64,000 nt of DNA from Plantactinospora mayteni (GTDB taxonomy: Bacteria; Actinomycetota; Actinomycetes; Mycobacteriales; Micromonosporaceae), in NCBI RefSeq assembly GCF_016862935.1, contig NZ_BONX01000044.1, forward strand, positions 1 through 64,000, given 5' to 3'. Position 1 is the first letter of the stretch; each line of letters opens with the position of its first letter. The notes beneath the pieces were generated by a model. The model did not search any database. It was not told the origin of the DNA and was given only the letters and a program-made list of their open reading frames with translations. Shown here one piece after another: positions 8,453 through 42,195 of the stretch. A program made the translations under genes and the position numbers.

Positions 8453-8542
8453 GAACCTTCTTCAACCTCCCCTTGCGGTCCGACGGACCGTAGGGTCGGA
8501 CGCGGTGTGTGAGCGCCGCGCGGCTCAGGTGGGAAAAGGTTC
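8453..8542 (+). repeat. 90 bp interspersed palindromic element, copy 1
   Basis: Bounded by GAACCTTCTTCAACC on the left and a partly complementary right end finishing AAAAGGTTC, with an internal hairpin around GCGGTCC/GGACCG and a GC-rich second arm. The final TTCA at 8540-8543 contributes the TGA stop codon of minus-strand tsaB (8541-8543). The same element occurs at 15221, 29526 (inverted) and 42105. Confidence 0.9.
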
Positions 8543-9242
8543 ACTGTAGGACCGGCTTCCGCCCGGCCGCCGCCACGGCGTCCGGCCGGCGCAGGTAGAG
8601 CGGCGTGAGCTGGTCACCGGGGGCGCCGGCCCGGACCCGCTCGGCCGCCAGCTCCGCCAGGGCGTACGGCGGGGGGTAGTCCAGTCCGGCTCGTAGTGGC
8701 AGTTCGAGGATGTCGGCGTACCGGCGGGCTCCCTCGCCGACCGCGACCCGGACGCCCAACTCCCGGGCCCGCTCGGCGACGGCGGCCGGGGTGTCGACCT
8801 CGGGCCCGGCCAGCCGCTCCCCGGCCAGGTCGTAGACGGCCCAGTAGATCTCCCGGCGCCGGGCGTCGGTGGCGGCCAGCACCGGCCCCGCCTCCGGAGC
8901 CGCCCCCGACCGGGGATGGGTCGCGGCGTGCCCGATGGCGTCGAGCGAGGGCACGCCGTAGGTGGGTATGCCCAGCACCTGACCCATGCTCGCCGCGGTG
9001 ACCAGGCCGACCCGCAGCCCGGTGAACGGCCCGGGCCCGACCCCGGCCACCACGGCGGCCAGGTCGGCCGGCCGGGCACCGGCCTCGGCGAGCACCTCGG
9101 ACACCTGCGGCGCGAGCAGTTCGCCGTGGGCGCGGGCGTCGACGACGCTGCGCTCGCCGCGCGGCGCCACCGCGTGGGCGGTGATCTCCGCCAGCGCGGC
9201 GGTCACCGCTGGGGTCGAGGAGTCCAGCACGAGTACGAGCAC
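8541..9242 (-). CDS. tsaB: tRNA threonylcarbamoyladenosine biosynthesis protein TsaB
   Basis: 233 residues, ASKHA-fold partner of TsaD. The start MLVLVLDSSTPAVTAALA and the conserved VVAGVGPGPFTGLRVGLVTA are characteristic of TsaB (YeaZ). It is a non-catalytic scaffold for the TsaB-TsaD-TsaE complex. The C-terminal part (about 120-233) is less conserved, as is usual. The protein ends GRKPVLQ and its stop codon lies in the edge of the 90 bp repeat, so the true ancestral C-terminus may have been slightly different. Confidence 0.92.
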   Translation of the reverse strand: MLVLVLDSSTPAVTAALAEITAHAVAPRGERSVVDARAHGELLAPQVSEVLAEAGARPADLAAVVAGVGPGPFTGLRVGLVTAASMGQVLGIPTYGVPSLDAIGHAATHPRSGAAPEAGPVLAATDARRREIYWAVYDLAGERLAGPEVDTPAAVAERARELGVRVAVGEGARRYADILELPLRAGLDYPPPYALAELAAERVRAGAPGDQLTPLYLRRPDAVAAAGRKPVLQ

Positions 9243-9348
9243 ATAGGCACCCTAACCGGGCGGTCGCCGACGCCGGGCACGACCCGGGGCGGCGTGGGCG
9301 GCCGGTCACCTCCGCCCGCCAGATCGACAACGACGGCGCCAGGTGACC

Positions 9349-9388
9349 GGGCCCGCCACCGCCGAGCTGATCCGGCGGTGGCGGGCCC
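9349..9388. terminator. Perfect 15 bp stem-loop between ung and tsaB
   Basis: Arms GGGCCCGCCACCGCC (9349-9363) and GGCGGTGGCGGGCCC (9374-9388) pair perfectly around a 10-base loop. It lies 56 bp past the ung stop and about 105 bp before tsaB, both on the minus strand. It is probably the ung terminator; no U-run is visible, as is common in high-GC actinobacteria. Nothing else was recognised between 9243 and 9443. Confidence 0.7.
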
Positions 9389-9443
9389 GGCACACGTCAA
9401 CCGACTGAGGTCGGCTCAGGTCAGCGGGCTGAGATCACCTGCG

Positions 9444-10130
9444 TCAGCGGACTGACAGGTCCCAGTCGACGGTGGGCCGACCGGCGTCGGCGAGCGCCTT
9501 GTTGCAGGCGCTGAACGGGCGGCTGCCGAGGAAACCGCGAGGGTTCATCGGACTCGGGTGACCGGCCTCCAGCACCACGTGCGACGGATTGCCGACCAGT
9601 GCGGCCTTCTTGCGCGCGTATCCGCCCCAGAGCAGGAAGACGATCCGCTCCGGGCGGGCGTCGAGGGCCTTGATGGTGGCGTCGGTGAACGCCTCCCAGC
9701 CCTTGTTGCCGTGCGAGCCCGGGGTCGCCTGCCGGACGGTCAACACCGCGTTGAGCAGCAGCACGCCCTGGCTCGCCCAACGGGTCAGGTTGCCGCCACG
9801 CGACACCGGCACCCCGAGGTCGTCGGCCAGCTCCTTGAAGACGTTGCGCAGCGACGGTGGCACCGAGACGCCGTCACGGACGCTGAAGCTGAGCCCGTGC
9901 GCCTGCCCCGCCTTGTGGTAGGGATCCTGACCGAGGATCAGCACCCGGCAGTCCTCCGGCGCGCAGAGCCGGTAGGCCGCGAAGAGGTCCTCCACCGGCG
10001 GGAAGACGGTCTGGGTCGCGTATTCCCCGGCGACGAACCCGCTCAACTCGGCGGTCTGGGCCGGGTCGAGGTGCGGGTCCAGCGCCGCCTGCCAGGCCGG
10101 CGGCAGCAGGGCCGGAAGATCCAGGGTCAT
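9444..10130 (-). CDS. ung: Uracil-DNA glycosylase, family 1
   Basis: 228 residues with the ATG at 10130 (MTLDLPALLPP), preceded by GAGGTTACCG as ribosome binding site; a longer in-frame extension to 10520 is rejected because it overlaps tsaE. It removes uracil from DNA as the first step of base excision repair. The water-activating motif GQDPYH and the DNA-intercalation loop HPSPMNPRGF are intact, and the length is normal. It sits between tsaB and tsaE, interrupting the t6A/cell-wall gene order, and is flanked on the tsaB side by a strong hairpin, so it is probably a separate transcript. Confidence 0.96.
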   Translation of the reverse strand: MTLDLPALLPPAWQAALDPHLDPAQTAELSGFVAGEYATQTVFPPVEDLFAAYRLCAPEDCRVLILGQDPYHKAGQAHGLSFSVRDGVSVPPSLRNVFKELADDLGVPVSRGGNLTRWASQGVLLLNAVLTVRQATPGSHGNKGWEAFTDATIKALDARPERIVFLLWGGYARKKAALVGNPSHVVLEAGHPSPMNPRGFLGSRPFSACNKALADAGRPTVDWDLSVR

Positions 10131-10260
10131 CGGTAACCTCTCGAGCGCCACGGTCGTTTCCCGCACTCTAGAAGTCCGGTACGACACCGGAAATTCCGGT
10201 ACGACGGCCCGTTCCCGGCGCGATGCGGCGCGCCTGTTCAGCGCGGCTCGGCGGGTTCGT

Positions 10261-10764
10261 TCAGCGCAGCACGGCGAGTCGCTCGGCCCAGTCGCCACCG
10301 AGTGGCACCAGCTCGACGCGCCGGGTGTCGTCGTCCCGCCGGTCGATGAGTACCCGCAGATGCGCGTCGACCAGGTGCTCGACCATGCCCTCGCCCCACT
10401 CGACCACGGTGACCGCCTCGTCCACCGAGGCGTCCAGGTCGAGGTCGTCGATCTCGGCCCGGGGGTCGACCGCGTCGCCCAGCCGGTACGCGTCGGCGTG
10501 CACCAGCGTGGCCCGGCCACCCCGAGCCGGATCGGGCCGGTGTACCCGGGCGATCACGAAGGTCGGCGAGGTGATCTCGCCGAGTACGCCCAGCCCGGCG
10601 GCGATCCCCTGCACCAGAGCGGTCTTGCCGGCGCCCAGCGGGCCGGTGAGCACCAGCAGGTCTCCGGTGCGGAGCAGCTCGCCGATCTGCCGCCCGAACT
10701 CGTGGGTGTCCGCCACCGTCGGCAGCTCGCGGACCAGTTCCCTACCGCGCAACGCGTCGCTCAT
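10261..10764 (-). CDS. tsaE: tRNA threonylcarbamoyladenosine biosynthesis ATPase TsaE
   Basis: 167 residues. The P-loop GPLGAGKTALVQGIA, switch-like TSPTFVI and a VVEWGEGM motif identify TsaE (YjeE), the ATPase that resets the TsaBD complex during t6A synthesis. It begins 9 bp after the stop of the alpha/beta hydrolase gene on the same strand. The 130 bp between tsaE and ung contains two copies of CCGGTACGAC (around 10177 and 10197) but no recognised site. Confidence 0.94.
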   Translation of the reverse strand: MSDALRGRELVRELPTVADTHEFGRQIGELLRTGDLLVLTGPLGAGKTALVQGIAAGLGVLGEITSPTFVIARVHRPDPARGGRATLVHADAYRLGDAVDPRAEIDDLDLDASVDEAVTVVEWGEGMVEHLVDAHLRVLIDRRDDDTRRVELVPLGGDWAERLAVLR

Positions 10765-10773
10765 CCGGACGGC

Positions 10774-11922
10774 TCAGTCCCTTCCTCGGCCGGGCAGCCG
10801 GTCGAGGAAGTCCAGCAGTGCCGTGTTGACCTCGTCGGCGTGTTCCAGCATCACCACGTGCCCGCTGTCGGGCACCTTGCGGTATTCGGCGTCCGGCAGC
10901 CAGCGGACGATCTCCTCGGAGTGGGTGACCGGGGTGATCATGTCGCGCTCACCCACGATGACCAGGGTCGGACTCTCCCGCAGTGCGGCCAGTACCGGAT
11001 AGCGGGCATGGGTGTAGATGGTGCGCAGATAGCGGGCCACCGTCTCGGTGGAGGTCCGGGAGTTCATCTTCTCCACGTAGGAGACCAGCGCCGGGCTGGG
11101 AGTGGGGGTGCCGAAGCCGTACCGGCGGGTGAGCAGCCAGGCCAGGTTGGCCGAGGCGCGCCGGGCCCGGTCGATCACGCTGCCGGTCAGCCGGGTGGCG
11201 TTGTCGACCACCGGCAGCAGCGGTGCGCCGGCCCGGGCGATGATCGCCGGCAGTCCGAACTTCGTCTCCGCCACCAGCCCGCCGGAGGTGGCCATCAGCA
11301 CGGTACCGACCACCCGCTCGGCGAACAGCTCCGGATAGCGCTCGGCGAACGCCATGATGGTCATGCCGCCCATCGAGTGCCCGACCAGCACCAGCGGCCC
11401 GGTCGGCGCCGTCCGGTCGATCACCGAGCGAAGCGTCTCGCCAAGCACCTGGAGCTGGTATTCGCCGGACTCCAGCCGGCCGGACCGGCCGTGCCCCGGC
11501 TGGTCGTAGAAGACCATCCGGTCCTCGCCCAGCTCGGTCAGGATCTTGCGCTGGAAGTGGAAGGTCCCCATGTCCAGGCAGAAACCGTGCACGAAGACCA
11601 GGGTCGGCCGCCCCGGTCCGGGCTGCGGCCCGACCAGCTCGACGTGGATGTCGGTGCCGTCGGCGGTGGAGACGGTGCAGGACTCGTCGTGGGGCAGTGC
11701 GCCGAACGGCTCGGTCGCGTACCGGTCGCCGGGTGCGATCTTGGAACGGCGTACCACCGCCCGCTCGGCAGCCACCCCGGCGGCGATGCCGGCCGCCGCG
11801 ACCCCGGCCGCCGCGCCGATGATGCCGGCCACCCGGAACAGCCCGGTCCGGGTCGGGGTACGCCGGGCGACCTGCCGCTGCACCGGTACCCGCGAGGCGA
11901 CGGCCCGCTTGGCGGGGCTCAC
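10774..11922 (-). CDS. Alpha/beta hydrolase with N-terminal membrane helix
   Basis: 382 residues, GTG start at 11922. Residues about 28-52 form a hydrophobic alanine/glycine-rich helix (likely anchor). The alpha/beta hydrolase fold follows with oxyanion motif VFVHGFCLDMG, nucleophile elbow VGHSMGGM (Ser), and acid/His regions VIVGERDMITP and PDSGHVVMLEH. The substrate is unknown. Such a hydrolase between alr and tsaE is common in actinobacteria. A perfect 60 bp tandem repeat fills the whole gap to alr, and its last copy supplies the likely ribosome binding site (GGAAGGCGAG about 5 bases before the GTG). Confidence 0.88.
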   Translation of the reverse strand: MSPAKRAVASRVPVQRQVARRTPTRTGLFRVAGIIGAAAGVAAAGIAAGVAAERAVVRRSKIAPGDRYATEPFGALPHDESCTVSTADGTDIHVELVGPQPGPGRPTLVFVHGFCLDMGTFHFQRKILTELGEDRMVFYDQPGHGRSGRLESGEYQLQVLGETLRSVIDRTAPTGPLVLVGHSMGGMTIMAFAERYPELFAERVVGTVLMATSGGLVAETKFGLPAIIARAGAPLLPVVDNATRLTGSVIDRARRASANLAWLLTRRYGFGTPTPSPALVSYVEKMNSRTSTETVARYLRTIYTHARYPVLAALRESPTLVIVGERDMITPVTHSEEIVRWLPDAEYRKVPDSGHVVMLEHADEVNTALLDFLDRLPGRGRD

Positions 11923-12041
11923 CGGAACTCGCCTTCCGTTCGCGACTGCGGGGCTCGCAAACCCGGCTCACTCCTCGCACTCCGGAACTCGCCTTCCGTT
12001 CGCGACTGCGGGGCTCGCAAACCCGGCTCACTCCTCGCACT
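11922..12041. repeat. Perfect 60 bp tandem duplication between alr and hydrolase gene
   Basis: Two identical 60 bp copies, 11922-11981 and 11982-12041, exactly span the region between the alr stop (12041-12043) and the hydrolase GTG (11920-11922). On the minus strand each unit reads open as SARSEPGLRAPQSRTEGEFR, and each contains GGAAGGCGAG, a plausible Shine-Dalgarno. Perfect identity suggests recent duplication or an actively copied unit. Confidence 0.95.
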
Positions 12042-13159
12042 CACGACCGCGCTCCGTCGTACACCCGGGGCACCCGGACCCCGCCGAACCGGGTGACGAT
12101 CTCGTAGTTGATGGTGCCGACCGCCTCGGCCCAGTCGTCGGCGGTGGGTACCCCGTCCGCCCCGTCGCCGAAGAGCGTCGCCACCTCGCCCGGGGCGACC
12201 GGGTCGTCGCCGCAGTCCAGCATGATCTGGTCCATGCAGACCCGGCCGGCGATCCGTCGCCGGGCACCGGCGAGCTGGACTGGACCGACGTTGGAGGCGT
12301 GCCGGGGCACCCCGTCGGCGTAGCCGAGCGGAACGACGGCGAGTGTCGTCTCCCGCTCGGTGTGGTAGGTGTGCCCGTAGGAGACCCCGGTGCCGGCCGG
12401 TACCCGCTTGGTCAGCGTCACCCGGGCCCGGGCGGTCATCGCCGGCCGCAGCCCGAACTGCTCCCCGGCCACCGGCGACAGCCCGTACATGGCGATGCCG
12501 GGGCGGACCAGGTCGAAGTGGGTGTCGGGCCGGGTCAGCGTGGCCGCCGAGTTTGCCAGGTGCCGGTAGCGGGGGCGCAGCCCGGCCCGCTCGGCCAGGG
12601 CCAGCCCTTCGGTGAAGACCGCGAGCTGCCGGTCGGTGGTGGCGTGCGTGGGCGCGTCGGCGTAGACCAGGTGGCTCCACAGCCCGACCACCTCGACCAG
12701 CCCGTCGGCCTGGGCCTTCGCCGCCGCGTCGAGCAGTTCGGGCCAGTCGTCCAGGGTCGCGCCGCCCCGGGACAGCCCAGTGTCGATCTTGAGGTGGGCC
12801 CGGGCCGGCCGGCCGGCCCGTTCGGCGGCGGCGACCAGCTCGGCGAGCTGGCCGAGGCTGGCGGCGGCCAGGTCGATCCCGGCGGTCACCCCGTCGTGCA
12901 GCGGCAGCCCGGGCGCCAGCAGCCAGGCCAGTACCGGCGCGGTGATCCCGCCCCGGCGCAGCGTCAACGCCTCGTCCAGGGTGCAGACGCCCAGCCAGTC
13001 CGCCCCGGCGTCGAGCGCCGCCCCGGCGACCGGGAGCATGCCGTGGCCGTATCCGTCACCCTTGACCACGGCCATCAGCTCGGCGCTCGTCCCGGACCGC
13101 AGTCGGGACACGTTGTCGCGGATCGCGTCAAGGTCGACGCGTACCTCGGCCTGCCACAT
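12041..13159 (-). CDS. alr: Alanine racemase
   Basis: 372 residues, fold-type III PLP enzyme that makes D-alanine for peptidoglycan. The PLP lysine is in the N-terminal VVKGDGYGHG, and the second catalytic residue is the tyrosine of GVSYGHTYHTE. The start MWQAEVRVDLDAIRDNVSRLR is typical of the family. It lies between nnrD and the hydrolase in a minus-strand cell wall/housekeeping run. The stop codon uses the last base of the 60 bp tandem repeat. Confidence 0.97.
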   Translation of the reverse strand: MWQAEVRVDLDAIRDNVSRLRSGTSAELMAVVKGDGYGHGMLPVAGAALDAGADWLGVCTLDEALTLRRGGITAPVLAWLLAPGLPLHDGVTAGIDLAAASLGQLAELVAAAERAGRPARAHLKIDTGLSRGGATLDDWPELLDAAAKAQADGLVEVVGLWSHLVYADAPTHATTDRQLAVFTEGLALAERAGLRPRYRHLANSAATLTRPDTHFDLVRPGIAMYGLSPVAGEQFGLRPAMTARARVTLTKRVPAGTGVSYGHTYHTERETTLAVVPLGYADGVPRHASNVGPVQLAGARRRIAGRVCMDQIMLDCGDDPVAPGEVATLFGDGADGVPTADDWAEAVGTINYEIVTRFGGVRVPRVYDGARS

Positions 13160-13245
13160 GCGTTCAGCCTACTGAAGCGTAGATCGAAATGGCCCCGGGT
13201 GCCGTGACCAGGACAGTTCCGCGCTCAACCCGGACAGTTCCGCGC

Positions 13246-14718
13246 TCAACGGGGCAGTCTGGCGATCACCGGTCGCAGCGCGGCGGCCACGTCGGCGGCG
13301 ATCACCGGCCCGCGCCGGGCCGCCTCCTGCCCGGCCAGCCCGTGCAGGTACGCCGCCGAAGCCGCCGCCCGCTCGGCCGGTACGCCGGCGGCGAGCAGCG
13401 AGCCCAGCAACCCGGCCAGCACGTCGCCGGTGCCGCCGGTGGCGAGGGCCGGGGTACCGGTCGGGTTGGCGAAGGCCCGCCCGTCCGGGGTGGCCACCAC
13501 CGTCCGGTCGCCCTTGAGCAGCACCACCGCGTTCATCCAGGTGGCCAGTCGCAGCGCCGCCCCGACCCGGTCCCCGCCGGGCGGCTCGCCGCAGAGCCGG
13601 GCGTACTCGCGGTCGTGCGGGGTGACCACGATCGGCGCGTCCCGCTCCCGCAGCCGCTCCGCCATCGAGCCGTCCACCAGCAGGGTGAGCGCGTCCGCGT
13701 CCAGCACCACCGGCACCGGTGCGGCGAGTACGCAGCGCAGCTCGGTAGCGGCCGTGGAATCGGTGCCGAGCCCCGAGCCGCAGACCCACGCCTGCACCCG
13801 GCCGGCCTCGTTGACCCGCTCGGCGGCGACCACGGACGGATAGCGGCGCAGCACCTCGGCCCGGGCACCACCGGCGTACCGGATCATGCCGGTCGGTCCG
13901 GCGACCGCGCCACCGGCCGAGAGCACCGCCGCGCCCGGGTACGTCGCCGAACCGGTGGCCAGCCCGACCACGCCCCGGCTGTACTTCTCCTCCTCGGGAC
14001 CGAGCCGGGGCCACCAGTCACGCACGTCCGACCACTCGGTGACCCGTACCGCCGGAGTGGCCCGCAGCCACGGGCCGAGCCCGATGTCGACCAGCTCGAC
14101 CTGCCCGGCCCGGGGTGCGGCCGGCCCGACCACGTGGGCGGGCTTGAGACAGCCGAAGGTGACCGTCAGGTCGGCGGTGACCGTGCCGGGCAGGCCGACC
14201 GAGCGGGGCACGTCGCCGGTGTCGACCTCGACGCCGCTCGGCACGTCCACCGCCACGACCGGCGGCCGGTCCCCGGTCCGGCCGGTCAGGCCGGGCAGCT
14301 CGGCCACCAGCCGGGCCGCCGGCTCGCGCAGCCCGCCGGAGCCGCCGATCCCGACGATCCCGTCCAGCACCAGGTCGGCCCGGTCCGGCAGCCCGTCGAC
14401 CACCCGCCCGCCCGACGCTCGGAACTCGGCCAGGCCGCCCTGGTGCACCCGCTCGGGCGCCAGCAGCACCGCACTCACCGCCGCGCCCCGGCCGGCGAGC
14501 CGGGCACCGGCATAGAGGGTGTCGCCGCCGTTGTCGCCGGAGCCGACGAGCAGCAGCACCCGGGCGCCGTAGACTCCGCCGTCCCGCTCGGCGAGCAGCC
14601 GGGCGCAGTGCCCGGCCAGCCCACCGGCGGCACGCCGCATCAGGGTGCCGGCCGGCAGGGTGGCCATCAGGGCCCGCTCGGCGGCGCGTACGTCCGCCAC
14701 CCGCCACGCGGCCCTCAT
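13246..14718 (-). CDS. nnrD: Bifunctional NAD(P)H-hydrate epimerase/ADP-dependent dehydratase
   Basis: 490 residues. The N-terminal half (about 1-210) is the YjeF_N epimerase with LLLVGSGDNGGDTLYAGARL. The C-terminal half is the carbohydrate-kinase-like dehydratase with TGGTGDVLAGLLGSLLAAG near the end. It repairs hydrated NAD(P)H. The start (MRAAWRVADVRAAE) is the ATG at 14718, inside a 34 bp repeat array; an ATG overlapping the acpS stop at 14802 is in the same frame but hits a TGA after 17 codons. Gene order acpS-nnrD-alr is typical of actinobacteria. Confidence 0.95.
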   Translation of the reverse strand: MRAAWRVADVRAAERALMATLPAGTLMRRAAGGLAGHCARLLAERDGGVYGARVLLLVGSGDNGGDTLYAGARLAGRGAAVSAVLLAPERVHQGGLAEFRASGGRVVDGLPDRADLVLDGIVGIGGSGGLREPAARLVAELPGLTGRTGDRPPVVAVDVPSGVEVDTGDVPRSVGLPGTVTADLTVTFGCLKPAHVVGPAAPRAGQVELVDIGLGPWLRATPAVRVTEWSDVRDWWPRLGPEEEKYSRGVVGLATGSATYPGAAVLSAGGAVAGPTGMIRYAGGARAEVLRRYPSVVAAERVNEAGRVQAWVCGSGLGTDSTAATELRCVLAAPVPVVLDADALTLLVDGSMAERLRERDAPIVVTPHDREYARLCGEPPGGDRVGAALRLATWMNAVVLLKGDRTVVATPDGRAFANPTGTPALATGGTGDVLAGLLGSLLAAGVPAERAAASAAYLHGLAGQEAARRGPVIAADVAAALRPVIARLPR

Positions 14719-14799
14719 CGCTGCAAGGTCCTCATCGCCGCACCGCCTTCATCGCCGCAAGGTCCTCATCGCCGCACCGCCCCCATCGCCGCACCGCCT
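14716..14799. repeat. 34 bp direct repeats between acpS and nnrD
   Basis: Units at 14716-14749 and 14750-14783 differ at only a few positions, and a partial third unit runs 14784-14799. On the minus strand each unit brings GCGATGAGG or GCGATGGGG, so several potential start codons lie in tandem before nnrD. The array exactly fills the acpS/nnrD junction. Confidence 0.8.
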
Positions 14800-15167
14800 C
14801 ATCGCTCCGCCACCACCATCGCCGAGGCGATCCCGCCGTCGTGCGACAGCGACAGGTGCCACCGTTGTACCCCGCGTTCGGTGGCGGCGGTCGCGACCGT
14901 GCCGGAGACCGTCAGCCACGGCCGCCCGTCCGGGTCGGAGACCACCTCGCAGTCGTGCCAGCGCAGCCCGGCCGGTGCGCCCAGCGCCTTGGCCACCGCC
15001 TCCTTCGCGGCGAACCGGGCGGCGAGCGACTCGGCCGAGCGCGGATTGCCCGACCCGGTGACGCGTTCCGCCTCGGTGAAGAGTCGATCGGCCAGCAGCG
15101 GGGTACGGGCGAGCGCCCGGGCGAACCGATCCACCAGTACGACGTCGATGCCGACCGCGACGATCAC
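14799..15167 (-). CDS. acpS: Holo-[acyl-carrier-protein] synthase
   Basis: 122 residues, usual length. It transfers 4'-phosphopantetheine from CoA to the serine of acyl carrier protein. The magnesium-binding [14 protein letters not shown] near the N-terminus and the [12 protein letters not shown] motif (about 48-60) are intact. It is encoded 140 bp after glmS on the same strand, a gap largely filled by copy 2 of the 90 bp palindromic element (15221-15309). Confidence 0.96.
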
Positions 15168-15220
15168 CGCCTCACCCTACCGGCGGGGCCGGTGCGCACG
15201 CTCACGGTGACCGGCTCACT

Positions 15221-15309
15221 GAACCTTCGTCAACCTCCCCTTGCGGTCCGGTGGACCGCAAGGTCGGACGCGGTGCGTGCGCGCCGCGCGATTCAGGTTG
15301 AAAAGGTTC
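15221..15309 (+). repeat. 90 bp interspersed palindromic element, copy 2
   Basis: The left end GAACCTTCGTCAACCTC and right end GAGGTT-like sequence closing with TTGAAAAGGTTC form a terminal inverted repeat. The centre has a perfect 9 bp hairpin (TTGCGGTCC/GGACCGCAA with 3-base loop, 15241-15261). The closing TTCA gives the minus-strand TGA stop of glmS (15308-15310), as copy 1 does for tsaB. Confidence 0.92.
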
Positions 15310-17209
15310 ACTCCACGGTGACCGACTTGGCCAGGTTGCGCGGCTGGTCGACGTCGTGTCCCCGGGCGGCGGCGATCTCGCAGGCGAGCACCTGCAACGG
15401 CACCGTGGTCACCAGCGGGGCCAGCAGGGTCGGGGTACGCGGCACGTAGATCAGGTGGTCGGCGTACGGGGTCACCGCCTCGTCGCCCTGCTCGGCGATC
15501 ACGATGGTGCGGGCGCCCCGGGCCCGGATCTCCTGGATGTTGGAGACGATCTTGTCGTGCAGCATCCCCCGCCCGGCCGGGGACGGCACGATGCAGACCA
15601 CCGGGGTGCCCTGGTCGATCAGCGAGATCGGCCCGTGCTTCAGCTCGCCGGCCGCGAACCCCTCGGCGTGCATGTAGGCGAGTTCCTTGAGCTTGAGCGC
15701 GCCCTCCAGGGCGACCGGGAAGCCGACGTGCCGGCCGATGAAGAGCACCGTCGGCGCCGCCTTGAGCTCCCGGGCCAGTTCCCGGACCGGCTCGATCCCG
15801 GCGAGCAGCTCGCGCAGCTTGTCCGGCATCTCCTGGAGCTGGTCCACCACCGCGGCCACCTCGTCGGCGTACTTGATTCCGCGTACCTGGGCCAGGTGCA
15901 GGCCGATCAGATAGCAGGCCACCACCTGGGTGAGGAACGCCTTGGTGGAGGCGACCGCCACCTCGGGCCCGCCGTGGGTGTAGAGCACGGCGTCGGACTC
16001 GCGCGGGATGGTGGAGCCGTTGGTGTTGCAGATCGCCAGCACCCGGGCCTTCTGCTCCTTGGCGTGCCGCAGCGCCATCAGGGTGTCCATGGTCTCGCCG
16101 GACTGGGAGATCGCCACCACCAGGGTGGACCGGTCGAGTACCGGGTCGCGGTAGCGGAACTCGCTGGCCAGCTCGACCTCGCAGGGGATCCGGGTCCAGT
16201 GCTCGATGGCGTACTTCGCCACCATCCCGGCGTGGTACGAGGTGCCGCAGGCGACGATGAAGATCTTGTCGGCGTCCCGCAGGTCCTGGTCGGAGAGGCG
16301 TACCTCGTCGAGGACGATCTCGCCGTTCTCCTTGAGCCGGCCGAGCAGGGTGTCGGCGATCGCCTGCGGCTGCTCGGCGATCTCCTTCAGCATGAAGTAG
16401 TCGTAGCCGCCCTTCTCGGCGGCCGAGGCGTCCCAGTCGATGTGGAAGTCCTTGCCGGTGGCCGGCGCACCGGTGAAGTCGGTGACCTCGATGGCCTCCC
16501 CGGTGATGAGTACCACCTGGTCCTGGCCCAGTTCGACCGCGTCCCGGGTGTGCTCGATGAACGCGGAGACGTCGCTGGCCAGGTAGTTCTCCCCGACCCC
16601 GCGCCCGACCACCAGCGGCGAGTTGCGCCGGGCCCCGACCACCGCGCCGGGGATCGCGGCGTCCACCGCGAGCAGCGTGAAGGCGCCCTCCAGCCGCTGG
16701 CAGACCTGGCGCATCGCGGTGGCCAGCAGGGTCGGCCCGTCGGGCTCGCCGGCGGCGCGCAGCCGGGAAAGCTCACCGGCGAGCAGGTGCGCGGCGCACT
16801 CGGTGTCGGTGTCGCTGGTGAACTCGACGCCCTCGGCCTCCAGCTCGGCGCGGAGCTTGGCGAAGTTCTCGATGATGCCGTTGTGGATCACGGCCACCCG
16901 GCCGTCCCGGGCCCGGTGCGGGTGGGCGTTGCGGTCGGTGGGCCCGCCGTGGGTGGCCCACCGGGTGTGCCCGATCCCGGTGGTCCCGGCGCCGATGCCG
17001 GGTACCGCGTCGTCATCGGCGGTCGACCGCTCGGCCAGCGCCTTCTCCAGGTTGGCCAGCTTGCCGGCCTTCTTCTCGGTCAGCAGGTCGCCGTCGCAGA
17101 CGACCGCCACCCCTGCCGAGTCGTAGCCGCGGTATTCCAGCCGCCGCAACCCGTCCAGCACGATGCCCAGCGCCGGCCTGGCGCCGGCGTAACCCACGAT
17201 TCCGCACAT
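15308..17209 (-). CDS. glmS: Glutamine-fructose-6-phosphate aminotransferase (isomerizing)
   Basis: 633 residues. It makes glucosamine-6-phosphate, the first committed step to UDP-GlcNAc. Cys2 is the glutaminase nucleophile (MCGIVGYAG) and RRLEYRGYDSAG follows; two SIS sugar-isomerase domains make up the second half (SQSGETMDT, ALKLKELAYMHAEGF). The C-terminus DQPRNLAKSVTVE is the conserved catalytic tail. glmM, the next enzyme, lies at 24997-26355, separated from glmS by a 7.5 kb insert of unrelated genes. The stop codon overlaps the palindromic repeat. Confidence 0.97.
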   Translation of the reverse strand: MCGIVGYAGARPALGIVLDGLRRLEYRGYDSAGVAVVCDGDLLTEKKAGKLANLEKALAERSTADDDAVPGIGAGTTGIGHTRWATHGGPTDRNAHPHRARDGRVAVIHNGIIENFAKLRAELEAEGVEFTSDTDTECAAHLLAGELSRLRAAGEPDGPTLLATAMRQVCQRLEGAFTLLAVDAAIPGAVVGARRNSPLVVGRGVGENYLASDVSAFIEHTRDAVELGQDQVVLITGEAIEVTDFTGAPATGKDFHIDWDASAAEKGGYDYFMLKEIAEQPQAIADTLLGRLKENGEIVLDEVRLSDQDLRDADKIFIVACGTSYHAGMVAKYAIEHWTRIPCEVELASEFRYRDPVLDRSTLVVAISQSGETMDTLMALRHAKEQKARVLAICNTNGSTIPRESDAVLYTHGGPEVAVASTKAFLTQVVACYLIGLHLAQVRGIKYADEVAAVVDQLQEMPDKLRELLAGIEPVRELARELKAAPTVLFIGRHVGFPVALEGALKLKELAYMHAEGFAAGELKHGPISLIDQGTPVVCIVPSPAGRGMLHDKIVSNIQEIRARGARTIVIAEQGDEAVTPYADHLIYVPRTPTLLAPLVTTVPLQVLACEIAAARGHDVDQPRNLAKSVTVE

Positions 17210-18654: not shown

Positions 18655-18687
18655 CGAAACGGCGTAGCGCGGCTCTAGGGTGACGGG

Positions 18688-29229: not shown

Positions 29230-29523
29230 TCAGATGCCCTGGAGGATACGCAGCGCCCGGCTGACCCGGAACATGGTGTCGGCGTCCGCGGCTCCGACGC
29301 ACTCGGTGAACCACTTCTTCATCGGCGACGAGAGCCGGTCGGGCATCACCACGTATTCGCCCATGGTCACGGCGAGCGGGGAGTCCCGGAGCAGTTCGGA
29401 GTCGACCACCTCGGCGACGATCACGATCGGCACGTCGGTGGAGTTGTAGACGTCGGAGCTGATCACCAGGCCGAGCCGGGACCGGGCCCCGTCGATCCGC
29501 CAGATCTCGCCCCTACGTAGCAC
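29230..29523 (-). CDS. MazF/PemK-family endoribonuclease toxin
   Basis: 97 residues opening with MLRRGEIWRIDGARSRLG, followed by LVISSDVYNSTDVPIVIVAEV, the beta-barrel core of MazF/PemK toxins (RGEIW and the S-D pair are conserved). The usual length is about 110. It probably cleaves RNA and is neutralised by the product of the gene just upstream (29556-29861). The toxin start lies 2 bp beyond the edge of an inverted 90 bp repeat element (29526-29615) that separates it from the antitoxin, so expression could be affected by that structure. Confidence 0.8.
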   Translation of the reverse strand: MLRRGEIWRIDGARSRLGLVISSDVYNSTDVPIVIVAEVVDSELLRDSPLAVTMGEYVVMPDRLSSPMKKWFTECVGAADADTMFRVSRALRILQGI

Positions 29524-29525
29524 TG

Positions 29526-29615
29526 GAACCTTCTTCGACCCGAATCGCGCAGTTCTCAGGCACCGCGTCCGACCTCGCGGTCCGCCGGACCGCGAGGGGA
29601 GGTGGTGGAAGGGGC
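29526..29615 (-). repeat. 90 bp interspersed palindromic element, copy 3 (inverted)
   Basis: Read on the minus strand it shows the same order as copies 1, 2 and 4: CCTCGCGGTCC/GGACCGCGAGG hairpin core, then GTCGGACGCGGT, ending near GAAGGTTCC. The terminal repeat is more degraded than in the other copies. It encodes the last ~19 residues and stop codon of the antitoxin and ends 2 bp before the toxin start. Confidence 0.82.
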
Positions 29616-29861
29616 ACTCGCACGCCTGCCGAGAGCCGCGTCGACCAGCGCGGCCTCCTGGGCGTCGGCGATGGCGGCGGCCTCGATGTCCAGGCGGGCC
29701 CGGCCGACCGCCGCGGCGTGCGCGGCGAAGACCTCACGGAGCGCCTTCTCCCGGGCGGCCTGGTCGATCCAGGCGGAAAGCGACATGCCGTCCCGTTTCG
29801 CGAAGGCCCGCGCCTCTTCGATCGTCTCGTCCGAAAACGAGAGAGTCACCTTGGCGGTCAT
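29556..29861 (-). CDS. Ribbon-helix-helix antitoxin with repeat-derived C-terminus
   Basis: 101 residues from ATG 29861 (MTAKVTLSFSDETIEEARAFA); an in-frame upstream ATG at 29909 is possible but lacks similarity support. The N-terminus has the strand-helix-helix pattern of CopG/MetJ-type DNA-binding antitoxins. A helical alanine-rich region follows (AREKALREVFAAHAAAVG), the likely toxin-binding part. From about residue 83 the frame enters the 90 bp palindromic repeat (APSTTSPRGPADREVGRGA), so the end of the protein is not ancestral. It lies immediately upstream of the MazF-like toxin, the usual order. Confidence 0.75.
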   Translation of the reverse strand: MTAKVTLSFSDETIEEARAFAKRDGMSLSAWIDQAAREKALREVFAAHAAAVGRARLDIEAAAIADAQEAALVDAALGRRASAPSTTSPRGPADREVGRGA

Positions 29862-29928
29862 GCCGCCCAGCCTACCGATGGTGTGACCGGCCGTCATCCC
29901 AGTCGTCATCCCAGCCCGCCGTCACCCG

Positions 29929-37110: not shown

Positions 37111-37553
37111 CTCTGGACGCCACGATCAACGAGGGATTCGCAGACGTCGCCGAGCCGAGTCGCGCCGAGCCGGGCGGGGCCGAGCCGGATGGCGGCGAGC
37201 CGGGTGGCGACGACGCGCGCTGGACGGCCGTCTGCCCGTACCCCCGACTGGAGCCGGAGCGCGGAGTGGCCGCGCTGGTCGACGGCGCGCAGGTGGCGGT
37301 CTTCCGCACCCACGACGGCCGGCTCTTCGCGATCGGCCAGCGGGACCCGATCGCCGGCGCGTACGTGATGGCCCGGGGCATCGTCGGCAGTCGCGGCGAG
37401 ATCCCGACGGTCGCCTCCCCGCTGCACAAACAGGTCTACGACCTGCGCACCGGGGACTGCCTCGACGTGCCCGGCGTGACGGTGCCGACCTACCGGGTGC
37501 GGTGCCGGGACGGGCTGGTCGAGGTGGCGACCCCGCCCACCGGAGGCTCCTGA
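37107..37553 (+). CDS. nirD: Nitrite reductase [NAD(P)H] small subunit
   Basis: 148 residues with a TTG start at 37107 that overlaps the nirB stop (TTGA). The first ~35 residues are a variable Ala/Pro/Gly stretch with SRAEPGGAEPDGGEPGG repeats. The Rieske-like fold follows (WTAVCPYPRLEPERGVAALV, VAVFRTHDGRLFAIG, VASPLHKQVYDLRTGDCLD). As is usual for NirD, the two Cys-x-His cluster-binding pairs of true Rieske proteins are absent. It forms the holoenzyme with NirB. Confidence 0.94.
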   Translation: MTLDATINEGFADVAEPSRAEPGGAEPDGGEPGGDDARWTAVCPYPRLEPERGVAALVDGAQVAVFRTHDGRLFAIGQRDPIAGAYVMARGIVGSRGEIPTVASPLHKQVYDLRTGDCLDVPGVTVPTYRVRCRDGLVEVATPPTGGS

Positions 37554-38641
37554 TGTCCGGCGAGCTGTCCGGCTTCACGGTCGGGGTCACCGCCGACCGG
37601 CGCCGCGACGAACTCACCGCCATGCTGGAGCGGCGCGGCGCCCGGGTGGTGCTCGCCCCGGCGCTGCGGATCGTGCCGCTGGCCGACGACACCGAACTGC
37701 GGGCGGCGACCCGGGCCTGCCTGGACAACCCGCCCGACGTACTGATGGCGAACACCGGGATCGGGATGCGCGGCTGGCTGGAGGCGGCCGAGGGCTGGGG
37801 GCTGGCCGAACCGCTGCGCTCGGTACTCTCCCGGGCCTACATCGTCAGCCGGGGGCCGAAGGCCCGGGGCGCGATCCGGGCCGCCGGCCTGCACGACGAG
37901 TGGTCGCCCGCCTCGGAGAGCTGCGACGAGGTGATCGACCACCTCCGGCAGCGCGGCGTACGCGGCCAGTTGATCGCGATGCAGTTGCACGGCGAGCGGC
38001 AGCCGGAGTGCACGGCCGCGCTGGAGGCGGCCGGGGCGAGCGTGCTCGAGGTACCGGTCTACCGCTGGGCGGCGCCGACCGACCCGGCCCCGCTGCACCG
38101 GCTGGTCGACCTGATCGCCGGCCGGCTGGTGGACGCGGTCACCTTCACCTCAGCACCGGCGGTCGGCGCACTGCTCAGGGCGGCCGGCCCTAGCACCGAG
38201 GCGGTACTCGACGCGATGCGCTCGGACGTACTGGCCGCCTGTGTCGGGCCGGTCACCGCCGCTCCGCTGCGCCGGCACGGCGTACCGGTGGTGGCGCCGA
38301 ACCGGGCCCGGCTCGGTGCGCTGGTCCGGACCATCGTCGACGAGCTGCCACAGCGGGCGATCAGCGTCAAGGTCGCCGGTCACCTGCTGACCCTGCGCGG
38401 GCACGCGGCCATCCTGGACGGTGAGCTGCGCCCGCTGGCACCGGCCCCGATGGCGGTACTCCGGGCCCTGGCGAGTACGCCCGGCCGGGTGATGTCCCGG
38501 GCGGCCCTGCTGCGCACCCTGCCGAGGGGCGCCGACGAGCACGCCGTCGAGATGGCGGTGGCCCGGCTGCGGGCCGGACTGCGCACCCCGGGGGTGGTGC
38601 AGACCGTGGTCAAACGCGGTTACCGACTGCCGGTCGACTGA
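37553..38641 (+). CDS. nnaR: HemD-like/winged-helix regulator of nitrate-nitrite assimilation (NnaR-type)
   Basis: 362 residues from ATG 37553, one base overlapping the nirD stop (TGATG) with GGAGGCTCC as ribosome binding site. Residues 1 to about 260 are uroporphyrinogen-III synthase-like (FTVGVTADRRRDELTAMLERRG, VTFTSAPAVGALLRAA). Residues about 275-362 are an OmpR/PhoB-type winged helix (LAPAPMAVLRALASTPGRV, VQTVVKRGYRLPVD). The same fusion is known in Streptomyces and mycobacteria as NnaR, a co-activator with GlnR for nitrite assimilation genes. Its position at the end of nasA-nirBD supports that role. Whether it also senses or makes a tetrapyrrole for siroheme is open. Confidence 0.87.
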   Translation: MSGELSGFTVGVTADRRRDELTAMLERRGARVVLAPALRIVPLADDTELRAATRACLDNPPDVLMANTGIGMRGWLEAAEGWGLAEPLRSVLSRAYIVSRGPKARGAIRAAGLHDEWSPASESCDEVIDHLRQRGVRGQLIAMQLHGERQPECTAALEAAGASVLEVPVYRWAAPTDPAPLHRLVDLIAGRLVDAVTFTSAPAVGALLRAAGPSTEAVLDAMRSDVLAACVGPVTAAPLRRHGVPVVAPNRARLGALVRTIVDELPQRAISVKVAGHLLTLRGHAAILDGELRPLAPAPMAVLRALASTPGRVMSRAALLRTLPRGADEHAVEMAVARLRAGLRTPGVVQTVVKRGYRLPVD

Positions 38642-39257
38642 ACCCCGTCGATCCGGTCCTCGTCGACCCGGTCCTCGTCGACCCGGTCCGCCTCGACCCG
38701 GTCCGCCTCGATCCGGTCCGCCTCGACCCGGCCTCGTCTGGGCAGCGCGAGGGAACGGGCCGGCTCGCTTCGGCGGGTTCCGGCGTCGACGGGGAGAGCG
38801 GCCGGGTCGCGTGGCGGTGGCGCGGCGCTCCGCACCTGGTCCACGACGGAGCGCGAGGGAAGGTGGACCAGGTTCATCGACCGGACGGACGGCGGCTCAC
38901 GCTTGGGTATCGGCTCGGTTTGATCCCTTGACGGGCGGACAGGCGGTTGGCAGGGTAAGGCCGCAACGTCCGGGAAGCGCCCGTAAACTGCCCTCCGGGA
39001 CTGTGCACAGGGGACAGGTGGAGGCGCCTCGTTTCCCTGGTAGAAACCATTTCGGGTCGCGTCACACCCTGCTCGCGAACGCGTCAGGAGGACTGCCGGA
39101 GACATCGGGCAAGGCATTACGATCATGCGGGCACCGGCCACAGCGAGTCCCCGGCAATCATCTGCACCCCCGGCACCGTCAGCGGGACGCGGCTGACCCC
39201 GAACCGGGCAGACCGATTCACATCCTCAATGGATTCTCCTCAAAAGGATAGGTAGGA
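38642..39257. other. 616 bp intergenic region with 15 bp tandem repeats
   Basis: From about 38648 to 38738 a 15 bp unit based on GTCGACCCGGTCCTC / CTCGACCCGGTCCGC is repeated six times, directly after the nnaR stop. The remainder to 39257 holds no convincing gene: a minus-strand open frame of 173 codons across it has the repetitive EADRV composition of the array and no family features. The last 20 bp contain AGGATAGGTAGGA, the ribosome binding site of the next gene. Confidence 0.7.
38928..38956 (+). promoter_or_regulatory. Possible promoter upstream of NitT/TauT-type lipoprotein gene
   Basis: TTGACG, 17 bp spacer, CAGGGT. It fits a housekeeping-type promoter but lies about 300 bp before the start codon, so it would imply a long leader. 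Confidence 0.28.
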
Positions 39258-40277
39258 ATGACGAGGCGTATACGCGTGCTGGCCGCCGCGGCGTTGGCCA
39301 CGGCCATGCTGGTCACGGCCGGCTGCTCGGGTTCGGACGACTCCGACGGGGGTGACGTCGGCAGCAAGGCTCCGGACAAGGTGACGTACCTCACCGGGTT
39401 CGGCACCGGTGGCCACGACGCATTCGCATGGGTCGCGAAGGACAAGGGATTCTTCAAGGAGGCCGGGCTCGACGTCACCGTCCAGCAGGGCGCCCCGGCC
39501 ACCAACAACCAGGGCCTGCTCTCCGGCAAGGCGCAGTTCACCTACAGCGACGTGACCCAGCTGATGATCCAGACCGGCAAGGCTCAGGTCACCGAGATGC
39601 GAGTGATCGCCGCGGTGCACCAGAGCACCCTGGTCGCGATCTTCGCGCCGCCCGGCTCCGGCGTCACGAAGCCGAAGGACCTGGAGGGCAAGCGGGTCGG
39701 TGTCGCCCAGGGCTCGATCACCAAGACCCTGCTCCCGGCGTACGGCAAGCTGGCCGGCTTCGACGCCAGCAAGCTCCAGTTCGTCGAGACCACCCCGCAG
39801 ACCCTGGTCGGCCTGCTGGTCGGCAAGAAGGTCGACGTACTCAGCACCTTCGTCATCACCCGGAACACCGTGGAGACGGTGACCAAGCAGACGATGACGG
39901 TCATGCCGCTCACCGACTACCTGCGTGACCTGCTCGGCACCGGCCTCACCACCACCGCCAAGTACGCCCAGGAGAACCCGGACATCGTCAAGCGGTTCAA
40001 GCACGCGGCGATGAAGGGCCTGAAGTACACGGTGGAGAACCCCGAAGAGGCCGCGAAGATCATGAAGGCCAACAACCCGAACGTGAACGAGCTGGGCGCC
40101 GCGGCGGAGATCAAGCTGATGACGCCGTACGTCACCTCGGCGCCGGGCAACACGATCGGTGCGCTCGACGAGCAGCGTGCCGCCCGGGCCATCGCCATCC
40201 TCCAGGGCGCCGAGCTGATCCCGGCCGGCCTCACCCCCGACAAGGTCATCGACTTCTCCATCGCGCCCAAGGCCTGA
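39258..40277 (+). CDS. ABC transporter substrate-binding lipoprotein, NMT1/TauA type
   Basis: 339 residues. A lipoprotein signal peptide ends at Cys23 (MLVTAGC lipobox). The mature part has the NitT/TauT/ThiY-type periplasmic fold: VTYLTGFGTGGHDAFAWVAKDKGFF, LDVTVQQGAPATNNQGLL, DLEGKRVGVAQGSI. The family binds nitrate, sulfonates or thiamine precursors such as HMP; the ligand is not evident. No TPP riboswitch motif precedes it, which argues against thiamine control, and the nitrate operon ends 0.6 kb upstream. A strong terminator-like hairpin follows its stop, before the cognate permease. Confidence 0.92.
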   Translation: MTRRIRVLAAAALATAMLVTAGCSGSDDSDGGDVGSKAPDKVTYLTGFGTGGHDAFAWVAKDKGFFKEAGLDVTVQQGAPATNNQGLLSGKAQFTYSDVTQLMIQTGKAQVTEMRVIAAVHQSTLVAIFAPPGSGVTKPKDLEGKRVGVAQGSITKTLLPAYGKLAGFDASKLQFVETTPQTLVGLLVGKKVDVLSTFVITRNTVETVTKQTMTVMPLTDYLRDLLGTGLTTTAKYAQENPDIVKRFKHAAMKGLKYTVENPEEAAKIMKANNPNVNELGAAAEIKLMTPYVTSAPGNTIGALDEQRAARAIAILQGAELIPAGLTPDKVIDFSIAPKA

Positions 40278-40296
40278 CCGGCCGGCGTGACACCTC

Positions 40297-40330
40297 GGGG
40301 ACGGCGAGTGGGCAGCCACTCGCCGTCCCC
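40297..40330 (+). terminator. Perfect intrinsic hairpin between lipoprotein and permease
   Basis: Arms GGGGACGGCGAGTGG (40297-40311) and CCACTCGCCGTCCCC (40316-40330) pair over 15 bp with a GCAG tetraloop and are followed by TTTG. It lies 19 bp past the lipoprotein gene. It probably raises the binding protein:permease ratio by partial termination. Confidence 0.82.
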
Positions 40331-40460
40331 TTTGCGACGCAGAGGAGAGACACGTTGCGCGTCTGGACCCTTCCGGGCAGCGATGCCCGCGACTCGCACG
40401 ACCTGCCGTACCGGCCGACGCGCCCGGCCGACGACCGCCGACACCGTACCGGCGGACCCG

Positions 40461-41237
40461 ATGACCGTTAGACGGGAGCTGTCCCCCGGCACCCGGGCCG
40501 CGCTGCCGATCGTCGGCACCGTCGTCGCGATCGGCCTCTGGTGGCTGGTGACCATCGTCTTCGAGGTCGAGACCCTCTTCCTGCCGTCCCCGCCGGAGGT
40601 CGTCGACGCCTTCGACCGGGAACCCGCCTACCTCTTCGAGGCGGCCTGGGCGACGCTCTGGGGGACGCTCGCCGGGTTCGGTATCGCGGCGGCCGGCGGG
40701 ATGGTCGCGGCCCTGCTGCTGACCGGCTCACGCCTGGTCGAGCAGGCCACCCTGCCGATGATCGTCGCGTTCAACGCGGTGCCGAAGGTCTCCCTCGTCC
40801 CGCTGCTGATCCTCTGGATCGGGTACGACTCGCGGACCAAAATCTCCCTGGTCGTCCTGATCGCCTTCTTCCCGATCATGGTGTCCACCATGGCGGGCCT
40901 GACCTCGACCCCGGCCGACCTCTACGAACTGACCCGGTCGCTCTCCGCGTCCCGGCTGAAGACCTATCTCAAGGTACGGCTGCCGTGGGCGCTGCCCCAG
41001 GTCTTCGTGGGGCTGAAGCTCGGCATCACGCTCTCCCTGATCGGCGCCGTGGTGGCCGAGTTGCAGACCCTGAACGGAGGGCTGGGGGCGATCATCTACA
41101 GCACACAGCAGTCGTTCGACACCCCGCTGGCGTTCGCCGCGATCACCCTGACCGGGGTACTCGGCATCGCCCTCTTCTACGCCGTGGTCGTGGCGGAACG
41201 GCTCGCCGTGCCGTGGGCCCGGAAGATCTCCGCCTGA
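40461..41237 (+). CDS. ABC transporter permease, SsuC/TauC type
   Basis: 258 residues from ATG 40461 (MTVRRELSPGTRAALPIVGT); the upstream in-frame extension is arginine-rich and non-family-like. Six hydrophobic helices; the EAA-type cytoplasmic loop is around LTRSLSASRLKTYLKVRLPWALP, followed by FVGLKLGITLSLIGAVVAEL. It belongs to the NitT/TauT permease family and pairs with the binding protein at 39258. No ATPase is adjacent; the best candidate is the SsuB-like ATPase at 48563-49372, 7 kb away. Confidence 0.92.
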   Translation: MTVRRELSPGTRAALPIVGTVVAIGLWWLVTIVFEVETLFLPSPPEVVDAFDREPAYLFEAAWATLWGTLAGFGIAAAGGMVAALLLTGSRLVEQATLPMIVAFNAVPKVSLVPLLILWIGYDSRTKISLVVLIAFFPIMVSTMAGLTSTPADLYELTRSLSASRLKTYLKVRLPWALPQVFVGLKLGITLSLIGAVVAELQTLNGGLGAIIYSTQQSFDTPLAFAAITLTGVLGIALFYAVVVAERLAVPWARKISA

Positions 41238-41270
41238 GCCACCACCACCCCGCACCTCGCCCGACCGATC

Positions 41271-41312
41271 GGGCGGATCACCGTCCCGGCCGTGGCCGAC
41301 GGTGATCCGCCC
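41271..41312. terminator. Bidirectional terminator between convergent genes
   Basis: Perfect 15 bp arms GGGCGGATCACCGTC (41271-41285) and GACGGTGATCCGCCC (41298-41312) with a 12-base loop. It lies between the permease stop (41237, plus) and the SDR stop (41319, minus), the classic place for a shared terminator. Confidence 0.82.
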
Positions 41313-41318
41313 ACCGGG

Positions 41319-42038
41319 TCAGGCCAGCCCGGCACCGCCGTTGAGGTCGAGGTTGACCGCGTTGACGGCCGGGTTCTCCAGCAGGAAAACGGCGGCGTCG
41401 GTGACGTCCGCCATGGTGGTCAGCCGGCCCGTCGGGGTACGCGCCGTGTAGGTCTCGTGCACCTCGGCCGGCTGCTTGGCCCAGAACGGGCTGTCGGCGA
41501 CGATGCCCGGGTGCAGGGCGTTGACCCGGACCGGCCGCAGCTCGGCGGCGAGCACGTTCACCAGGCCGACCACCCCGGCGTTCACCGTGGAGACCGTCGC
41601 CGAACCGGGGAAGGGCCGGTCCTTCGAGCCGCCGCCGAAGAGCAGCACGGAACCGTTCGGCGAGAGCCTGGACTGGAGGGTGTGCGCCACCTCGGTGTAC
41701 CCGACCAGCTTGACGGTGACCAGGCTGACCGCGCGGTCGATCTGGTAGTCCGAGACCTTGTTGACGTCGCGGACGAAGGCGGAGAGGACAAGGTGCCTGA
41801 TCTCGCCGATCCCGGCGAGCGCGGCGGCGATGGACTCGGGCTTGGCGAGGTCGACGGCAACCCCCGTCGTCCGGCCACCGATCTCGGCGGCGACCGCTGC
41901 GGTCCGGGCCGCGTCGCGCCCGGTGATGACGACCGCGAGCCCCCGCTTCGCGTAGTGCTCGGCCACGTCCCGGCCGAGGCCGGAGGTACCCCCGATGACG
42001 GCTACGCAGCCGCCATCGGGGCCATCGTGCTGTGGCAT
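41319..42038 (-). CDS. SDR-family protein lacking the catalytic Tyr/Lys
   Basis: 239 residues from ATG 42038 (MPQHDGPDGGCVAVIGGTSG). The Rossmann cofactor motif is clear (VIGGTSGLGRDVAEHYAKRG), followed by VITGRDAARTAAVA and VDLAKPESIAAALAG. At the catalytic position, where SDR enzymes have YxxxK, the aligned segment reads VSTVN (ATVSTVNAGVVGLVNVL), so tyrosine and lysine are both replaced. It may be a non-enzymatic nucleotide sensor or use another mechanism. It is 69 bp downstream of copy 4 of the palindromic element and the conservon operon on the same strand. Confidence 0.85.
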   Translation of the reverse strand: MPQHDGPDGGCVAVIGGTSGLGRDVAEHYAKRGLAVVITGRDAARTAAVAAEIGGRTTGVAVDLAKPESIAAALAGIGEIRHLVLSAFVRDVNKVSDYQIDRAVSLVTVKLVGYTEVAHTLQSRLSPNGSVLLFGGGSKDRPFPGSATVSTVNAGVVGLVNVLAAELRPVRVNALHPGIVADSPFWAKQPAEVHETYTARTPTGRLTTMADVTDAAVFLLENPAVNAVNLDLNGGAGLA

Positions 42039-42104
42039 ATCTGTCCCTCTCGTTGTGCAGGATTGAACCGCGGAGCCTCCCCGGGCCCGGCAAGCCTGCT
42101 CAAC

Positions 42105-42195
42105 GAACCCTTTTTCAACCTCACCTTGCGGTTCGTCCGACCGCAAGGTCGGACGCGGTGTGTGAACGCCGCGCGGTTCAGGTTGAAAAAGGTTC
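42105..42195 (+). repeat. 90 bp interspersed palindromic element, copy 4
   Basis: The best preserved ends: GAACCCTTTTTCAACCT on the left and AGGTTGAAAAAGGTTC on the right, complementary except for one extra base. The centre again contains TTGCGG...CCGCAA and the GTCGGACGCGGTGTGTG block shared by all copies. It lies 11 bp past the stop of the conservon GTPase gene (42207). Confidence 0.93.

Follow-up and report, generated by a model that had tools for sequence, protein, structure and literature searches.

A stop-codon-rebuilding family of miniature transposable elements in Plantactinospora mayteni and its probable IS5-type mobilisation

The first 64,000 nucleotides of contig NZ_BONX01000044.1 of Plantactinospora mayteni (assembly GCF_016862935.1), the stretch analysed here and called the window, carry four copies of a palindromic repeat of about 90 bp. 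We identify this repeat with high confidence as a new family of miniature inverted-repeat transposable elements (MITEs). The original prediction, made from the four copies, had proposed a non-autonomous element of this kind, and the proposal is borne out by the inverted ends, the ANT target duplication, the copy number, the empty orthologous sites and the existence of similar-ended insertion sequences (IS) elsewhere. The account that we consider very probable as a whole combines a MITE, its mobilisation in trans by an IS5-type transposase, the rebuilding of stop codons at insertion and hairpins inherited from founder copies. Stop-codon-restoring insertion is the unusual part of this family: in about one copy in six of the host genome the stop is silently rebuilt, a clean natural case of a mobile element made harmless to its host by the fit of its terminal bases to the target. 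The family accounts for more than 100 interspersed repeats, possibly unmarked in annotation, among them those forming the 3′ ends of glmS and tsaB.

The four copies are far from alone in the host assembly (9.84 Mb, 123 contigs). BLAST with copy 2 retrieved at least 40 near-full-length copies, and the 16-base end TGAACCTTTTTCAACC occurs 201 times with up to two mismatches, against a single occurrence of the reversed control. The genome search recommended with the original prediction, run with a 30-copy covariance model, gave at least 148 matches at E <= 0.001; this figure is a lower bound because only the best 150 of 16,430 first-pass candidates were scored, of which 148 passed. All of these except C34:83424, that is 147 copies, were analysed together with their flanks. 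The consensus, GAACCTTTTTCAACCT...AGGTTGAAAAAGGTTC, is bounded by the terminal inverted repeat GAACCTTTTTCAACCT (ends of 16-17 bp) and contains two hairpins between the ends, one strong and the other weaker. Length is tightly distributed, 90 bp in 89 copies and 89-91 bp in 123, and the element is non-coding, being too short for a transposase gene. Interiors define two subfamilies, A with 94 copies and B with 45, eight copies remaining unassigned.

With the element bounded as GAACC...GGTTC, the flanking triplets are identical in 75 of the 147 copies and one base apart in 45, while shuffling of the partners (1000 trials) yielded 20.2 identical pairs on average and 33 at most. In the remaining 27 copies the flanks mismatch at two positions or at all three, which speaks against a duplication. 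The duplicated target is 3 bp long and reads ANT; where ANT stands on each side (73 copies), the middle base is common to both in 68. Outside called genes, C and G enclose the triplet (C-ANT-G) at 31 of 71 occupied sites and at 167 of 1408 unoccupied ones, and GA follows or TC precedes ANT at 22 of 71 versus 184 of 1408.

We propose that a trans-acting transposase, in all likelihood an IS5-family enzyme (HTH_Tnp_4 plus DDE_Tnp_4), recognises the 16-bp ends and would insert the 90-bp element into ANT, duplicating this triplet, with a preference for C-ANT-G and for ANT followed by GA. Since the element starts with GA at either end and the target ends with T, a fresh insertion would give TGA at both junctions. 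Where the target is itself a stop codon (ANT|GA), the stop would be rebuilt and the insertion would be silent at the protein level. A preference for stop codons would follow partly from the target motif itself.

Gene ends agree with this scheme. Genes were called by a small purpose-built finder trained on the open reading frames (ORFs) of the window, for which stops are reliable and starts less so. Thirty-six genes, one per copy, end exactly at a junction, where the T of ANT and the GA of the element form TGA. The empty site already held a stop in 25 of these 36 cases (22 TGA, 3 TAG), leaving the protein unchanged, and held none in 11. The ratio of stop to intergenic positions is 25:74 at occupied and 58:1381 at unoccupied ANT sites; given ANTGA it is 22:26 versus 42:191 (odds ratio 3.8, p = 1e-4), and given CANTGA 9:21 versus 5:60 (p = 0.01). 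The unoccupied sites in these counts were taken within the window and in DNA around copies, and the statistics treat sites as independent. Stop-restoring junctions are commoner than the ANTGA motif alone explains. Genome-wide, the element is nevertheless not a ‘3′-end element’: 82 copies lie between same-strand genes, 29 between converging and 31 between diverging genes, the last with no adjoining gene 3′ end, whereas four are inside genes and one has a gene at only one of its sides.

Within the MITE reading, the excess at stops might reflect survival and not targeting, insertions in intergenic DNA and at stops being those kept from insertions into all ANT sites; we give this explanation somewhat less than an even chance. 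It agrees with the depletion of gene-interior insertions (in:intergenic 5:26, versus 234:191 for ANTGA sites) and with only four of 147 copies being well within a called gene. Yet survival would not favour stops over other intergenic ANTGA sites, where the 3.8-fold excess is seen, unless insertions at those were costly too. Moreover, stop junctions do not vary with age, being formed by 14 of 53 fresh and 22 of 94 decayed copies, a result more in line with targeting or early loss than with slow selection.

The copies in the window, with their target duplications and the genes that they adjoin, are the following.

8453..8542, plus strand: MITE copy 1, subfamily A, flanks ACC/ACT, supplying the TGA stop of minus-strand tsaB
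8450..8452, unstranded: left target duplication of copy 1, ACC, which differs from ACT at one base
8543..8545, unstranded: right target duplication of copy 1, ACT, whose A, in the minus-strand reading, supplies the T of the TGA that ends tsaB
15221..15309, plus strand: MITE copy 2, subfamily A, with ACT at 15218-15220 and 15310-15312, supplying the TGA stop of minus-strand glmS
29526..29615, minus strand: MITE copy 3, decayed, with AGT at 29616-29618 and 29522-29524 and one surplus C at 29525
42105..42195, plus strand: MITE copy 4, with AAC at 42102-42104 and 42196-42198, its end 11 bp past the stop of an ATP-binding (cvnD-like) gene
8541..9242, minus strand: tsaB-type gene (TsaD-domain protein), 3′ end at copy 1
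15308..17209, minus strand: glmS (SIS and glutamine amidotransferase domains), 3′ end at copy 2
29556..29897, minus strand: antitoxin-position ORF with a weak DUF6364 match, its last ~19 residues and stop codon from copy 3
42207..42725, minus strand: ATP_bind_1 gene (cvnD-like), whose stop adjoins copy 4

The four repeats of about 90 bp described in the original prediction were thus recovered at the coordinates given there, with lengths of 89-91 bp on base-level reading. They show the inverted ends together with the TTGCGGTCC/GGACCGCAA hairpin and the GTCGGACGCGGT block, single copies having substitutions. Their placement at the 3′ end of minus-strand genes, also claimed there, is correct for all four in differing ways: copies 1 and 2 lie within the stop codon itself, copy 4 lies 11 bp past a stop, and the antitoxin-position frame enters copy 3 and terminates there. 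Copy 3 has the antitoxin-position gene on one side and, on the other, a gene for a PemK-like toxin. The toxin start as called, GTG at 29523, falls within the duplicated AGT of this copy.

Comparison with relatives documents the insertions. The glmS site is devoid of the element in all six congeners examined and, at locus L213, the empty site is exact around a single ACT: GGCTCACTCCACGG versus GGCTCACT-element-ACTCCACGG in the host. The tsaB site is likewise empty in Plantactinospora endophytica (L246) and P. alkalitolerans (L247), both named Plantactinospora records, and in four more records examined among 80 retrieved. Insertion-site polymorphism, suggested earlier as a check between strains, is therefore seen between species, and the opposite outcome of syntenic copies in all relatives is contradicted by these empty glmS and tsaB sites. 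At 5 of 23 loci of relatives (congeners and one other genus) the insertion site is common to the host on both flanks; such shared, older sites imply more than one wave of insertion. The host-built covariance model counted 26, 13, 10, 6, 0 and 0 copies in six congeners, and a DNA search of 101 genomes (host, congeners and family) found matches in six: the host, four congeners and one genome of another genus. Amplification of the family mainly in this host genome belongs to the overall account that we favour strongly.

Some copies of the host display particular arrangements. Two oppositely oriented copies stand 14 bp apart at L126 (G000:C23:485620-485819), and C4:288602 and C4:288713 are likewise neighbours, with a spacing of 19 bp. 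In L160 (G000:C56:10640-10735) and L132 (G000:C63:59096) the left part runs into its own reverse complement as a near-perfect hairpin, pointing to a fold-back event of repair or copying.

As regards the mobilising enzyme, a DDE_Tnp_4 search of six genomes yielded 17 matches, spread over five genomes, and some of them share one element. The elements delimited around transposase genes were as follows.

L332: 916 bp, ends GAGCCTTTTTCATCCT and GAGCCTTTTCCAACCT, both GAGCCTTTTYCAWCCT-like, flanks ATT/ATT
L338: 917 bp, GAGCCTTTTYCAWCCT-like ends, flanks AGT/ACT
L367 (from a protein search): 917 bp, GAGCCTTTTYCAWCCT-like ends, flanks GAT/GAT
L327: 1622 bp, flanks ACT/ACT
L326: flanks AAG/CTT at a length of 912 bp, or CTT/CTT at 2025 bp
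L328: left end GAACCTTTTCCAACCT after ATT, 15/16 to the MITE end; right end with 5 mismatches

Like the MITE, the Micromonosporaceae IS5-family elements L332, L338, L367 and L328 have ends of the form GA[AG]CCTTTT[TC]CA[AT]CCT and mostly ANT flanks; unlike it, they measure about 910-920 bp and code for a DDE_Tnp_4 transposase. These IS, found in congeners and in another genus, have ends alike to the MITE end at 11-15 of 16 positions, none being identical; two of the end patterns used in the IS search were derived from the IS themselves, and the mismatches of 1-5 in 16 refer to the MITE end alone. The candidate transposase scores above cut-off for PF13613 and PF13359 (HTH_Tnp_4 and DDE_Tnp_4), and in each of six congeners a relative of it is present, 71-100% identical across all or a portion of the query and in several cases broken. 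Similar ends and a majority of ANT flanks make IS5-family insertion sequences the likely movers, and the MITE was likely moved in trans by an IS5-family transposase of the type present in these relatives. Duplication of ANT is a trait of the ISL2 group of the IS5 family. Within L326, positions 348-2373 (G001) may represent an IS5-type transposon of 2025 bp, flanked by CTT at either end, in which a 337-aa passenger ORF accompanies the transposase.

Several observations weigh against this assignment. The IS ends deviate from the MITE end at the 1-5 of 16 positions just given, and not all of them are flanked by ANT pairs (CTT/CTT or AAG/CTT for L326, GAT/GAT for L367, AGT/ACT for L338). The IS5-family model NF033581 of NCBIfam scores the candidate at 123 bits, short of the 140-bit cut-off. 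In the host, the three relatives of the candidate transposase are only 35-37% identical, and none of 24 DDE transposase loci (5 + 19, some overlapping) has an end within four mismatches of the MITE end, with the sole exception of L237, which carries a MITE copy. With IS-derived patterns, host locus L223 showed two poor ends (four mismatches each), 955 bp apart and flanked by ACG/GGC.

Further searches concerned an autonomous element in the host itself. Ends followed by non-MITE bases gave five matches in the host, all inside MITE copies, and a second end search gave 21 there, with no inward-facing pair less than 4 kb apart; end searches and two transposase families together revealed no autonomous element, other transposase families not being searched. 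The transposase with matching ends that had been sought as a check thus has similar-ended IS5 counterparts in congeners and another genus and none among the host loci searched. Because the host relatives of the transposase are distant, the host MITEs look orphaned, many copies being present while the likely transposase is found only in relatives; against this view, contig gaps could conceal an IS in the host.

Elements with the same ends exist more widely in the family Micromonosporaceae. The exact GAACCTTTTTCAAC, together with next bases that mostly exclude the host interior, occurs in 24 of 300 genomes of the family and 5 of 44 genera, host included. An opposite end (up to three mismatches) completing an element of about 73-91 bp was found at 24 of 30 loci examined, one of them the host's. 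Interiors of elements of genus g30 (among L182-L211) are unlike that of the host, whereas the interior of L202 (g32) resembles it, both judged by eye on unaligned sequences. In ten same-ended elements that were folded, including one of the host, both ends are paired in all (z -2.8 to -6.4). Likeness of ends, size and duplication together with different interiors indicates that the frame is kept while the interior varies. At 52 loci tried in other genomes, 15 had no findable element, and 10 of the other 37 elements form a gene stop, a count for which no null was computed; the stop pre-existed in six of the ten (L073 in a congener; L186, L188, L194, L210 and L211 in genus g30). L193 and L195 are apparently one site in two genomes. 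Two single ends in other genera, L184 and L203, have by eye no transposase among their listed ORFs. Plasmids and phages contained no match to the element. In viral contigs the 16-mer was present in 23 stretches, with no second end (up to two mismatches over 14 bases) in the retrieved DNA, and since this second end is absent we take these occurrences as due to chance.

These data allow a bolder, and in our opinion rather doubtful, joint reading, that of a transposon adapted to gene boundaries. Its terminal GA and its preference for ANT(GA) would home it to stops and rebuild them; its outward end (AAAAAGGTTCA-NTG) would act as a putative substitute ribosome-binding region beside starts, so that insertions inside operons might be translationally silent; and its ends, size and duplication would persist from one genus of the family to another, with replacement of the interior. 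The element stands one base ahead of a called start in 14 cases and two bases ahead of one in copy 3, its outward end there being approximately AAAAAGGTTCANTG.

Other bacterial MITEs display some of these features. BrickBuilt and further IS5-derived MITEs (Porphyromonas, Neisseria ATR; PMC4596501) have IS5-like ends beginning with GA, as here; in the portion of that paper relied on, BrickBuilt-type elements differ by their GAGACCTTTGCA-type ends, their other hosts and a minisatellite interior, and the term ‘stop codon’ is absent from its text. The Chunjie MITE of Geobacter is high-copy like ours according to the relevant part of a review (PMC10969869), which gives 178-235 bp. The title of the original Chunjie paper refers to operon insertion without disturbed structure. 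In QMITE2 of Coxiella, a copy placed where a gene ends provides the C-terminus, somewhat like our copy 3; as presented in the extracts used (PMC5896051, PMC10969869), QMITE2 differs by a full length of about 190 bp, direct repeats of 7-9 bp and ends of 23-29 bp. No earlier account of the present MITE family was found in the literature, searched mainly through titles and abstract openings with few subscription journals covered.

The internal hairpins raise the question of a function in RNA. A dispersed structured terminator, as also put forward in the original prediction, or an mRNA-stabilising hairpin, selected at gene 3′ ends, would agree with the strong fold: three copies outside the window (L012, L002 and L023; four RNA folds and one DNA fold of non-window copies were computed) form a three-way junction with z of -5.8 to -7.1 versus dinucleotide shuffles. 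It would also agree with the gene 3′ ends adjoining all four window copies and with the 36 stops made by junctions. We nevertheless find this explanation improbable. Terminator scans, limited to window regions, are at chance level (1 found versus 0.8 expected, 2 versus 2.2), even if one terminator-like match touches copy 4 and runs into its T5; in the window search, no Rfam family matches a copy at gathering score, the sole match being a TPP riboswitch away from the copies. The 31 copies between two gene starts have no gene end to terminate, and stop junctions are about equally frequent in fresh and decayed copies.

Covariation is at most weak in both subfamilies, and we do not favour a structured RNA under selection. 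Pairing in subfamily A is 90.1%, against a mean of 89.4% and a maximum of 90.0% in 300 shuffles, and its double-change cells number 34 against a shuffle maximum of 33; both measures lie just above all 300 shuffles, a weak sign of fold upkeep that counts against our view of the hairpins. Kinship can mimic such a signal, related sequences exceeding shuffles without any structure, and double changes are no commoner than the 23-37 obtained with partners slid by 1-3 columns. Subfamily B does not surpass the shuffle maxima (pairing 91.4% versus 91.5%; double changes 14 versus 14, and 9-19 when slid). Upkeep of the fold after insertion is at most weakly supported, and we regard the fold as belonging to the transposon and not as a host RNA. 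Most simply, the internal hairpins would be inherited from founder copies.

Target duplication by terminal repeats is not known as a feature of REP/REPIN sequences. An element of REP/REPIN type, mobilised by a RAYT (Y1) transposase, the REP-like option of the original prediction, is highly improbable for our family: in the descriptions drawn on, REP/REPINs are palindromic, mostly extragenic and present in more than 100 copies, as here, whereas our element has 16-bp terminal inverted repeats and a 3-bp target duplication, both unexpected of Y1 single-strand transposition, and the REP-like option is unsupported for that reason, RAYT genes not having been searched for.

Two further features of the window stand apart from the MITE. 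A TPP riboswitch at 58621-58731 (minus strand) scores 68 bits, above the Rfam gathering score, and a 17-bp tandem repeat of the CGCCGCAAGGTCCTCAT kind extends over 14702-14799, between two called genes.

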